NCBI GenBank assembly: GCA_026003335.1
Contig: BPHB01000001.1
Span: 1,138,591 to 1,202,590 of the forward strand
Direction of reading: 5' to 3'
Origin: Chitinophagales bacterium
Lineage (GTDB): Bacteria; Bacteroidota; Bacteroidia; Chitinophagales; CAIOSU01
DNA length: 64,000 nucleotides
Both the position numbers and the translations under genes were made by a program. Of this stretch, positions 3,497 through 7,880 are shown piece after piece; position 1 is the stretch's first letter; each line of letters starts with the position of its first letter. Under the pieces are notes generated by a model. That model did no database searches and was not told where the DNA came from. It was given only the letters and a program-made list of their open reading frames with translations.

Positions 3497-6433
3497 TCAA
3501 TCATCCAGAATCACCACCTTAACAGTCTGCTGTGCCTTATTATTCCATACCCTCAGGAGGTAGACTCCCGGTGAGCAACGTTCGGTATTTACTACTATCG
3601 TTTGGAGGGTTGCAGGAAGGTTTTGAGCGAATACCGGTACCCCCTGAGGGCAAATGAATTGCACGTATCGTTCACCTGTATCTTCATCTATGATTACGTA
3701 GAGAGGATTATTCCGGCTTGCAGGATTGGGAAACACCTGTACCTTTTTATCCCGTAGCCTAAAAATGCCGGTAGCGCTGTCCTCAATATAGATGTCAAAA
3801 ACATCGGCCTCATAAAAAGGTATCAGTTGGTTACCAGCCAGGTCTTCACATATATCCACTGCCACATCTATATCTGCAATAATCTGCGGCACATAAGCCA
3901 CATCAAAAACGGAAATAAATGTTTGCACATCCGTCCACTTACTTGCGCCCACATCGGCTGTTAGCACTGTACCTAAAGGATTTTCTGCCGGAAACCTGAC
4001 CAGCGGCTTGAAGAAGGTGTCCATTGGCTCATTAAAAAACAAGGTAACGTGAAAGGTGCCCATGCCTGTCAGGGAAGCAGTTACGGTGTCATGGCTTGTC
4101 TGTATATGAGTGATGTATGGATCTTTGGTATCTATACTAAATACGTTCATTGCGGTGTAATCGACTTGTTCGTTTGCGACCACATCCCTGGCTCCGCTTA
4201 CTTTTACATCAATATCGCGGAGGTTCAGCTCCGCATCCGCAACATCATAATAGGCTCTAAAAACCGAATCATCCACCCACCTGCTACCAGATGCATGGTA
4301 AGTCAGGGACACACCAGGATTCTCCACAGGGAAAGCGATGACCGGAGTAAGAGTTGTATCCATGGGTTCATTAAATACCACGGCTAGTGAAAAGGATGCC
4401 TCTCCCGTATCAGTATCGGCAACCAAGTGTTTTGACGGTAAAATGTGTAATACCCTCGGTCTTCGCGTATCAAAGTAGGTTTCGGCAAATTCTACAACAC
4501 GCGGACCCAGAACCATGCCGATAAGCCGGCCGGGCATATCATCAGCAGGCGGATGAATACCGCCAAAAATGCGCGAAAGGCTGCATTGATCGGAGGCATC
4601 ACGATACGTAGCCCATTGCAAGGTGACATCTACACTCGGGCCGTCTTCAAATACAAGAAACTGGTTTTTAGGTGCATGAAACTCGCCTATGCCTCCAGGG
4701 AAATAGGCATCTCCGGTGATGGCCGTCAACACTTCGGCAGCCGTACGCGAGTAGGTAGAGTGGCCGGATATGTATCCGGCAAAGGGGGGAGTAATAAAAG
4801 TAGGACGCTGGTAGGGCCACCAGTTTTCGGCTAATATCCAATCCACTCCTGCCACATCCGTAGCCGGATCATGGATATAAGACGGACCCCGCCATGCCTT
4901 CAGTTTGATTTTGTTGACATGCTGATTGCCCGGCCCGGCAAGCGAATCGCCCGGCTGTACAAGCTCTATGAATCCCGGCACCAGCGGAATGCCGTTTCGC
5001 GAATAGTTGGGCAATAAGGAATCTGAGCTCTGTCCCTGCTGACACATATACCGTATCGCAGATATGGGACGCACATAGTCATACCATCCTTTTATGCTCC
5101 ATGCCGTGATGGCCGCATCATGCATGGCACCTCCCAAAGTGAAATAGGACTTCACATCCCATTCCAGCGGATCTATTACATCACCCCGCCCCCGCCATTT
5201 GCGAACAAACAGCGGATGATCCGCTACATAGTTTAATATGGTAAACCAATGCCCCGGTGGTGTTTCCGAGTGAGGGCCGTCAGCCCAAAACTCAGCCAGC
5301 ACACGCGTATAATCTCCTCTTGGAACAATCTGAGGTACATAGGGCAAACCGGTTTTAGGATTGAGGCTGTGCCCAGGACTATAGTCCCCGCCTCCCAGCA
5401 AATCATAAAAGTTTCTCTGGTCGGGAATAGTTGTCGGGTAATGCTGCAGATTTCCAATACTTCCTGGCGATATATCCCACATTACACTATCAGAAGGGTC
5501 CAGCATGGATGACCAGATGGCAACCAGCGCAAAGGTCCATTTATACTCTTCACTCAGGCCACCACCTGAAGCCGTATCCAGCAAAGGAGGCGGGCCGGGA
5601 TCAAGATACACCAGGTAGGGGTTTGCATCGCGTATATGGATAGTGCGGTCAGAATCCCTGAGAGAAAAAGGCTGCACATCGCCCCATTCAGGACTGAGAA
5701 ATTCAGGAGTATTACCCGGAATAATGTTCCCGCTCTGGTCAATAAAAATGTCCAGGGTTAAGGGCTGCCATAAATTGGGGTCCTGAATGGAAGGATTACC
5801 GGGTAAGACAGGAATGAGGGGAGGGTTGCGCGGTTGATAATATGTATTGGCGTAGTTGTTCTGTTCATTGGAGCCATCCTGAAGCCCGAATCCGATATAT
5901 TGCTGCGCAATATAATTGCCCAGGGCGGCAGGTGTATCGGTGTAGTTCGTGGAGTGGTAAGAGGAGTCATATCCCAGAGCGAGAAAGAGTGAATCCACAG
6001 CAGCCATGGTCAAACTGCTGTTGGGTGAGGTGCGAAAGCGGTGTTTCAGTAACCTGTATGCCGCATAACTGATTGCTTCTTCCCGGGCGGCTTGCATGTC
6101 AGCTGGCGTGTTTACTCCGCTAAAGGGGCAAAAAAAACTACCCACCGTATCCCCGAGCAGGTAAGGTACCGCAACACTATCGTAAGCTGCCCATGCATCA
6201 TACATAGCAGCCGACAAATGGAACAGATTGCGCGCATGAACAGTAGGGCGGGCATAATCTTTTCGGATTGCATTCAACAAAGCTTCGTTCCATTTCCTGG
6301 CTACGGAATGCTGCGCATAAATCGGGTGTAGTACTGTTCCGCCGAGTATCAGCATGCCGGTAAATACAAATACTGCTGCCGGCCAGCAATAGAGGATAAG
6401 ACCATTTTGGGCACTATTCCGTTCCACGATCAA
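3497..6433 (-). CDS. T9SS-secreted vanadium haloperoxidase/PAP2-like enzyme
   Basis: A 978-residue secreted protein. A membrane-type signal lies at residues 14-40, then a vanadium-dependent haloperoxidase/PAP2 domain (about 50-640). Oxyanion-binding residues fit the family: an Arg in YDYVRPISAIRYM, then GYISGHSTYSRTAAEVL with the Gly-His-Ser core, and a late His in GGIHPPADD. Two ~105-residue beta-sandwich repeats follow, each with the phrase FNEPMDT, and the end is a T9SS type A sorting domain (VFPNPASRN, final VVILDD). Relatives are either vanadate haloperoxidases or acid phosphatases; the sequence does not decide which. The sorting domain predicts export across the outer membrane and attachment or release at the surface. 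It appears monocistronic. Confidence 0.88.
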   Translation of the reverse strand: MIVERNSAQNGLILYCWPAAVFVFTGMLILGGTVLHPIYAQHSVARKWNEALLNAIRKDYARPTVHARNLFHLSAAMYDAWAAYDSVAVPYLLGDTVGSFFCPFSGVNTPADMQAAREEAISYAAYRLLKHRFRTSPNSSLTMAAVDSLFLALGYDSSYHSTNYTDTPAALGNYIAQQYIGFGLQDGSNEQNNYANTYYQPRNPPLIPVLPGNPSIQDPNLWQPLTLDIFIDQSGNIIPGNTPEFLSPEWGDVQPFSLRDSDRTIHIRDANPYLVYLDPGPPPLLDTASGGGLSEEYKWTFALVAIWSSMLDPSDSVMWDISPGSIGNLQHYPTTIPDQRNFYDLLGGGDYSPGHSLNPKTGLPYVPQIVPRGDYTRVLAEFWADGPHSETPPGHWFTILNYVADHPLFVRKWRGRGDVIDPLEWDVKSYFTLGGAMHDAAITAWSIKGWYDYVRPISAIRYMCQQGQSSDSLLPNYSRNGIPLVPGFIELVQPGDSLAGPGNQHVNKIKLKAWRGPSYIHDPATDVAGVDWILAENWWPYQRPTFITPPFAGYISGHSTYSRTAAEVLTAITGDAYFPGGIGEFHAPKNQFLVFEDGPSVDVTLQWATYRDASDQCSLSRIFGGIHPPADDMPGRLIGMVLGPRVVEFAETYFDTRRPRVLHILPSKHLVADTDTGEASFSLAVVFNEPMDTTLTPVIAFPVENPGVSLTYHASGSRWVDDSVFRAYYDVADAELNLRDIDVKVSGARDVVANEQVDYTAMNVFSIDTKDPYITHIQTSHDTVTASLTGMGTFHVTLFFNEPMDTFFKPLVRFPAENPLGTVLTADVGASKWTDVQTFISVFDVAYVPQIIADIDVAVDICEDLAGNQLIPFYEADVFDIYIEDSATGIFRLRDKKVQVFPNPASRNNPLYVIIDEDTGERYVQFICPQGVPVFAQNLPATLQTIVVNTERCSPGVYLLRVWNNKAQQTVKVVILDD

Positions 6434-6504: not shown

Positions 6505-7002
6505 CTATTCTTTTTTTATATAAACCTCTGCATCTTTATCAAAAAAGAAACTCAGATGCATGTACTTCTGGAAAAAAGCTCTCAGGTCTTTTGAGGAATC
6601 AAACTTCTCATCAATATTATCCGTTACTGGAGTGAGCGCTACCTTGCGCCCGTCCGGAGCCATTTCGTATTTGTAAAACAGATAAGACTTTTTTACGGTA
6701 TCAGGTGCGTAAACGGTAAAAAACAGAATAGAATCCAGATTCGTCAGGTAGGCATTGTAAGTGAGAGTGTCGTCTTTATGTCCGTGTCCATTAACTTTTA
6801 TTTTCAGAATCGTGTAGGTGTACTCATCGCCCGGGGAAACACGATACAGGTATTCTTTATCAGCGGTATTGACCCACTCGCCCAGCAACCGCTTATCAAT
6901 CCTGACGAAAGGTTTATCCAAGGGTACTTCTGAGCCATAGGGGCAACCGGTCAGCAGCAATAATGACAATATACCCACCATCCATGCGGTTATTCTACCC
7001 AT
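6505..7002 (-). CDS. Putative lipoprotein, unknown function
   Basis: A 165-residue protein with a lipoprotein signal: hydrophobic core LSLLLLTG followed by Cys20, so signal peptidase II cleavage and lipid anchoring are expected. The mature part is rich in Tyr, Asp and Lys and looks like a small all-beta domain; I do not recognise a family. It lies 71 bases upstream of the haloperoxidase-like gene on the same strand and could share its transcript. A candidate structured RNA begins about 60 bases upstream of its start on the same strand. Confidence 0.75.
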   Translation of the reverse strand: MGRITAWMVGILSLLLLTGCPYGSEVPLDKPFVRIDKRLLGEWVNTADKEYLYRVSPGDEYTYTILKIKVNGHGHKDDTLTYNAYLTNLDSILFFTVYAPDTVKKSYLFYKYEMAPDGRKVALTPVTDNIDEKFDSSKDLRAFFQKYMHLSFFFDKDAEVYIKKE

Positions 7003-7059
7003 TTCAATACGCTTTAATACAAAAATACAAATTTTACCGGTGCTGCTGTAAAGAAATAA

Positions 7060-7294
7060 AAAAGCCCATACAGTAAGTGCTGGTTTAGAAAAAGCCCCTT
7101 ATAACGAACGATAAGGTTACCGGCTGGGGTTGAGTATCCTCTGCCACCTCAAGGCGGATCCGGAAAGCAGCGCTGGACGAACCAGTTTATTTTCCGGTTG
7201 AGGCCCGCTCTTGCCCAGCCTTGGCTTCCTCAATGGTTTACTGTTGAGCTTTTCAAACGTCACTTACCGTATGGACCTGTTACTTTGTTTTCCA
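7060..7294 (-). ncRNA. Candidate 6S-like rod-shaped RNA
   Basis: The only stretch over 300 bases without a protein gene (7003-7475) contains nested inverted repeats. 7066-7079 pairs with 7261-7274 (13 of 14 positions). 7083-7095 pairs with 7248-7258 through GTTT/AAAC, GAAAA/TTTTC and GC/GC with two single-base bulges. 7122-7128 (GGCTGGG) pairs with 7214-7220. Inside these, 7147-7152 pairs with 7198-7203, 7160-7163 with 7194-7197, and 7173-7176 with 7182-7185. An unpaired zone of about 26 bases per side separates the outer and inner stems, giving the stem - large bubble - terminal stem plan of 6S RNA. On the minus strand the closing stem runs straight into GGGCTTTTTTA, and a promoter-like GTTCTTTG lies at 7301-7308, so the minus strand is favoured. 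The exact ends and the 6S identity are inference. Confidence 0.45.
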
Positions 7295-7433
7295 TTCTTG
7301 CAAAGAACGCTGCATCTAATTTATGAAAGCAGTTTAAAAATCACAAATGAATCCTGAAAATTTCACATACTCCAAACTTTGCCATTCAAAAAAAAAAAAG
7401 ATAAAAATTTAACACTGTATTTTAAAAACTTTT

Positions 7434-7441
7434 TAGCTTTG
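7434..7441 (+). promoter_or_regulatory. Promoter -7 box TAGCTTTG
   Basis: Perfect match to the Bacteroidota housekeeping -7 element TAnnTTTG, 35 bases before the ATG of the small lipoprotein gene at 7476 and preceded by an A/T-rich tract. No clear -33 TTG element is seen. Confidence 0.5.
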
Positions 7442-7475
7442 CACCGGACATTAAAAATCTGTCCTGCTTTTTATT

Positions 7476-7679
7476 ATGGAAAAATTGGTTTTTGCCCTTC
7501 TTATTTCCGGAATGCTGGTTGCCTGTAACTCGCAAACAGCTTCCGAATCATCCAACACATCAACCGAGACCGAGCAGGTCACTACCCCCGCTGAAACGCC
7601 TGCAGCGCAGACACCTGCAGATACCACAGTGGCGGACAGTGTTGCTGTACCGGCGGACACAACTGCCGTTGCACAGTAA
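7476..7679 (+). CDS. Small Thr/Ala-rich lipoprotein
   Basis: A 67-residue protein with a short signal ending LVAC (Cys17 is the lipid anchor). The rest is low-complexity, rich in Thr, Ala, Pro, Glu and Asp, for example TPAETPAAQTPADTT. No fold is expected beyond a flexible acidic tail, so it is probably a surface or periplasmic anchor peptide of unknown role. It stands alone, with a good -7 box upstream and an intrinsic terminator 20 bases after the stop, which together support a real short transcription unit. Confidence 0.75.
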   Translation: MEKLVFALLISGMLVACNSQTASESSNTSTETEQVTTPAETPAAQTPADTTVADSVAVPADTTAVAQ

Positions 7680-7698: not shown

Positions 7699-7733
7699 AA
7701 AAAACCTGCCTCAGTTGAGGGGCAGGTTTTTTT
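7699..7733 (+). terminator. Intrinsic terminator after small lipoprotein gene
   Basis: AAAAAACCTGCC (7699-7710), a ten-base loop, then GGCAGGTTTTTTT (7721-7733). The stem is flanked by A and T runs, so it could work in both directions and also stop transcription from the right. Confidence 0.8.
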
Positions 7734-7808
7734 GTACTTGTTGTAAAAGCTCCGGTTAAAATACCACAGGAAGAATAATCACTTATCTATTGTAACGTAG
7801 CGCTTGCG

Positions 7809-7880
7809 TGACCCAGCCGGGATTTGAACCCGGGACCCCTTGCTTAAAAGGCAAATGCTCTACCGCTGAGCTACTGGGTC
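7809..7880 (-). tRNA. tRNA-Lys (anticodon TTT)
   Basis: A complete 72-base cloverleaf on the minus strand. The acceptor stem is GACCCAG/CTGGGTC and the discriminator base is A. The D arm contains AGCTCAGCGGTAGAGC. The anticodon loop CTTTTAA gives anticodon TTT, and the T arm is CCGGG-TTCAAAT-CCCGG. The 3' CCA is not encoded, so it must be added by the CCA-adding enzyme, for which a gene lies at 26779-28212. Confidence 0.97.

Follow-up and report, generated by a model that had tools for sequence, protein, structure and literature searches.

A diverged 6S RNA gene away from zapA and rny in a Chitinophagales bacterium

Introduction

6S RNA, a near-universal small RNA, imitates an open promoter in its shape and so parks RNA polymerase. 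Bacteroides thetaiotaomicron is reported to have 6S RNA and pRNAs (PMC7366714), and Flavobacterium psychrophilum to have 6S RNA (PMC9723704). The gene order zapA-ssrS is known from proteobacteria (PMC7641849). A limited literature search, outside which the 2014 6S survey of Wehner et al. fell, returned no paper on 6S RNA in Chitinophaga.

Here, we describe a locus in the genome of a Chitinophagales bacterium. All coordinates refer to the window, which is the whole stretch of 64,000 nucleotides that was analysed. The locus, at 7279–7058 on the minus strand, is a diverged member of the 6S RNAs. It is very probably a 6S RNA gene, the counterpart of ssrS, and by homology its product should function like other 6S RNAs. 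The closest described system is 6S-Flavo (RF01685; Weinberg et al. 2010, PMC2864571), with which the RNA shares the closing stem, a second stem (P2) with AAACTC/GAGTTT-type arms, the CTCAACA sequence on the 5′ side of the bubble, an apical arm, and an end in a U-run. It differs from 6S-Flavo in that it lies below Rfam detection, has a longer apical arm with a GCGGGCCTCA core, and is encoded outside the zapA–rny site. With 6S RNA of family RF00013 it shares the overall plan, and with the Bacteroidales members of that family (sub-threshold here) the CTAACACTA/CTCAACA block of the bubble; however, the RF00013 model has no match at this locus, and the gene is not linked to zapA. Ms1 RNA of Actinobacteria (PMC9130861) is a 6S-like RNA that binds RNA polymerase, as the RNA described here would, but it binds the core enzyme and belongs to another phylum.

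Results and Discussion

Positions 7003–7450 of the window have no overlapping open reading frame of 60 or more amino acids. Within this gap, the minus strand of 7058–7279 is predicted to fold into a long rod with a minimum free energy (MFE) of −88.7 kcal mol−1 that ends in TTTTTT. Shuffled sequences had a mean of −63.7 kcal mol−1 (standard deviation 4.3; z −5.8), and none of the 200 shuffles was as stable. The preliminary description had called for folding in both directions, and the plus strand gave the weaker fold (z −3.9). The closing stem it had proposed (7066–7079 with 7261–7274) is present and is lengthened in the MFE structure to 18 pairs, 7062–7079 with 7261–7278. Both arms of its nested GGCTGGG/CCCAGCC stem were located, at 7122–7128 and near 7214–7220, and the T-run that it placed after the closing stem occupies 7063–7058. 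The rod has a closing stem, a large central bubble, and an apical arm, as 6S RNAs do.

Rfam 15 gave a single match in the window, a tRNA-Lys at 7809–7880, and none at the locus, either at the gathering threshold or at E≤10. The RNA is a 6S homologue, yet the proposed check with the Rfam 6S model finds nothing here. Neither RF00013 nor RF01685 has a significant match anywhere in the genome. The best RF00013 score in it (13.8 bits, E 3.1) lies elsewhere than the locus and was taken as noise. The curated gathering score of either family is not reached, and this score is a database threshold and not a biological definition. Across the phylum, 53 of 296 genomes had RF00013 matches that stayed below threshold and were mostly of full length, and RF01685 matched 30 of 247, including one (G024) from the window's own order. 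By eye, AAAAGCTCAACAGTAAACCATTGAGG of the window resembles the 5′ bubble of the RF00013 and RF01685 reference RNAs. A joint MAFFT alignment of the Bacteroidales and Flavo types produced a poor consensus fold, so the covariance model used here (R1) was restricted to the Flavo type. For R1, 12 6S-Flavo-type RNAs detected by RF01685 in other Bacteroidota genomes were aligned (A1), with the window excluded. R1 matches 7279–7058 of the minus strand over 171 of its 171 positions (64.8 bits, E 4.9e-11). Although the E-values rest on a brief calibration, the bit score greatly exceeds the 20–21 bits of the weakest matches listed. This match is the only one in the 3.9-Mb genome, which has no better 6S candidate elsewhere. 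The parts of the RNA are as follows.

7058..7279, minus strand: 6S RNA gene, model extent (R1 match 1–171/171, 64.8 bits, E 4.9e-11); the ends are those of the model, not mapped transcript ends
7261..7278, minus strand: closing stem P1, 5′ arm, pairing with 7062–7079 (MFE)
7062..7079, minus strand: closing stem P1, 3′ arm (MFE and R1 consensus)
7246..7258, minus strand: P2, 5′ arm, containing AAAAGCTC (AAACTC in 6S-Flavo), pairing with 7083–7097 (R1 match)
7083..7097, minus strand: P2, 3′ arm (R1 match)
7228..7245, minus strand: central bubble, 5′ side, AACAGTAAACCATTGAGG, with the conserved CTCAACA block
7098..7112, minus strand: central bubble, 3′ side (sequence and R1 structure)
7113..7227, minus strand: apical arm, GCGGGCCTCA core and variable tip; the GCGGGC block is common to the homologues of the order
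7058..7063, minus strand: run of six T directly after the closing stem, terminator-like (sequence)

All 12 P1 pairs and all 13 P2 pairs of the R1 consensus form in the window. P3 contains two non-standard pairs (7223, 7224), and in P4 three pairs coincide with gaps. The open region is two-sided in the R1 structure (5′ side 7245–7228, 3′ side 7112–7098), as had been described. Judging from the letters, CCTTAT and ATAAGG overlapping the 3′ side could form a local hairpin; such a hairpin in this strand showed no clear conservation across the order. Most homologues have T-rich ends similar to that of the window.

A different rod-like structured small RNA with no kinship to 6S would explain why the Rfam 6S models have no match and why the apical arm departs from the 6S-Flavo consensus. 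We consider this improbable, as the match to a 6S-Flavo-type model is full-length and includes the CTCAACA block together with the stems that bound it, and the genome has no other 6S candidate.

The gene, read as 6S RNA, is presumably transcribed, and the transcript is predicted to fold into a rod of closing stem, second stem, central bubble, and apical arm. By homology with other 6S RNAs, that of Bacteroides thetaiotaomicron among them, the bubble would mimic an open promoter and bind the sigma-A RNA polymerase holoenzyme as growth slows. On recovery, the polymerase would copy the bubble's 5′ strand into a short pRNA, 5′-GUUGAGCUUUUC..., probably starting opposite C7243. Synthesis of the pRNA would then unfold the RNA and release the enzyme.

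R1 found one match each in G001–G005, five of the six genomes of the same family; the sixth, G006, is 78% complete and lay outside the R1 genome sample. Within the order, 31 of 150 genomes match at E≤1. A refined order-level model (R2), made from 27 order sequences with the window included, found one copy each in 74 of 199 genomes, which is a lower bound as the filters were strict. To Rfam, the genomes of this order appear to be without 6S RNA, and at least 74 of the 199 carry the gene; R1 and R2 would fill this gap in the 6S census. The neighbours of the RNA bear on another explanation, a cis-acting leader or attenuator of the gene at 6505–7002, located downstream of the RNA and on its strand. 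The RNA ends in a U-run before this gene, the other family genomes have the RNA but no relative of the gene, and no such common neighbour was found among the homologous loci elsewhere, all of which makes a cis-acting role very unlikely.

The preliminary description had named conservation and covariation in relatives as a check of the stems, and both were found. When the 27 order sequences were fitted to R1, 90.2% of the cells were standard pairs (60.9% when shuffled), and 42 of the 44 pairs showed two-sided changes, including all 12 in P1. The covariation score was 0.75, compared to 0.23 for shuffled sequences and 0.07–0.13 with the partners slid. An alignment fitted to R1 is biased towards the R1 structure. 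A sequence-only MAFFT alignment of the order (A3) gave 28 pairs, 27 of them with two-sided changes and including an 11-pair P1, and it agrees with the R1 structure in P1 and in stretches of the arm. A chance fold or decayed repeat would fit the direct DNA similarity search against 60 relatives, which returned chance-level pieces only and no close relative, but it is very unlikely given the z of −5.8, the covariation, and the single-copy conservation across the order. With a model free of the window matching end to end, a sole match in the genome, and pairs kept by two-sided changes, the proposal that the minus strand encodes a 6S RNA is supported. Four homologues in one family (f9; L104, L106, L115, L116) differ in the bubble and apical arm (GTTGGATA, AAAACAGGTTAAC) and possibly represent a sub-type of 6S RNA.

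In 59 of 60 reference Bacteroidota loci, zapA and rny adjoin the 6S gene; the exception (G024) is from the window's order. The zapA genes of these loci were identified by Pfam PF05164, and an assignment of the upstream gene as xseB was rejected on this basis. Neither zapA nor rny was found in the flanks of the order 6S loci (up to 1.5 kb) or in the 64-kb window. This linkage, which is frequent in 6S but does not define it, is thus absent here. In the window's genome, zapA lies on contig C2, followed after 66 nt by rny. This zapA–rny interval (G000:C2; L146, 1477–1843) has no 6S match, and five family genomes have none at the corresponding site either (L141–L145). This is most simply read as a departure of the 6S gene from the zapA–rny site in the window's lineage, where the models reveal it elsewhere; the 28 order loci suggest that the move is shared by the whole order. 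The zapA–rny gap of L142–L145 measures 158–173 nt and contains a TATATTTG-type box and a ACTGCCTG that resembles a 6S 5′ end, with no 6S model match.

Around the locus, synteny with a nitroreductase gene was not seen, as the relatives' copies have no tRNA gene nearby, and a neighbouring protein of 165 amino acids has no relative within the family. Type IX secretion genes lie near the 6S locus; together with the 6S-Flavo matches in other genomes of the phylum, they place the window in Bacteroidota. The minus-strand gene at 3497–6433 encodes a vanadium-haloperoxidase-like protein (Pfam DUF6851, VCPO_2nd, and Por_Secre_tail, the type IX secretion tail match being weak). On the plus strand, a short lipoprotein-like open reading frame (7476–7679) encodes 67 amino acids, with T, A, and P abundant among them; a terminator-like hairpin with a T-run comes after it (about 7707–7735).

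Two elements were noted upstream of the RNA.

7300..7309, minus strand: CGTTCTTTGC, boxA-like leader element, containing GTTCTTTG (7308–7301); GTTCTTT occurs upstream of 6S loci, and GTTCTTTGAA in 16S leaders
7344..7351, minus strand: possible, weak −7 box TTCATTTG, one mismatch to TAnnTTTG (sequence only)

GTTCTTTG had been described as promoter-like, which is doubtful. GTTCTTTGAA is present in all seven readable 16S leaders (L130–L136), which were taken from relatives, no 16S gene having been found in the window's own genome. The recurrence of the motif there is better explained by a boxA-like element, and GTTCTTTG is probably not a promoter. In several 16S leaders, GTTCTTTGAA visibly follows a TAnnTTTG-type box, which places it in the transcribed leader. 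We name 7309–7300 boxA for what we take to be its resemblance to the E. coli element. TAnnTTTG has been reported as the sigma-A −7 box of flavobacteria (PMC9723704). In the window, a TTTG at 7373–7376, 21 nt upstream of the possible −7 box on the minus strand, is also weak.

GTTCTTT was found within 160 nt upstream of 21 of 29 flavobacterial-type 6S loci (shuffle expectation 0.18), where it lies 21–26 nt before the RNA, and of 10 of 28 order loci (expected 0.38). Four genomes of the family (g3) count as close relatives, so the order loci amount to fewer than 10 independent cases. Among Bacteroidales 6S loci, the motif is limited to 3 of 30. The boxA-like element may have a role in 6S synthesis. 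We tentatively suggest that in much of Bacteroidota the 6S leader carries the boxA-like element of the rRNA leader, and that 6S and rRNA may share a Nus-type antitermination complex. No paper linking 6S with boxA and NusB came up in a limited literature search. If true, synthesis of the polymerase-parking RNA would be tied to the ribosome-making machinery, and the link between the two kinds of leader is testable. The 6S loci with GTTCTTT(G/A) upstream are, besides the window (7300–7309, minus strand), L070–L076, L079–L083, L085–L088, L091–L095, L104, L106, L107, L112–L116, and L118.
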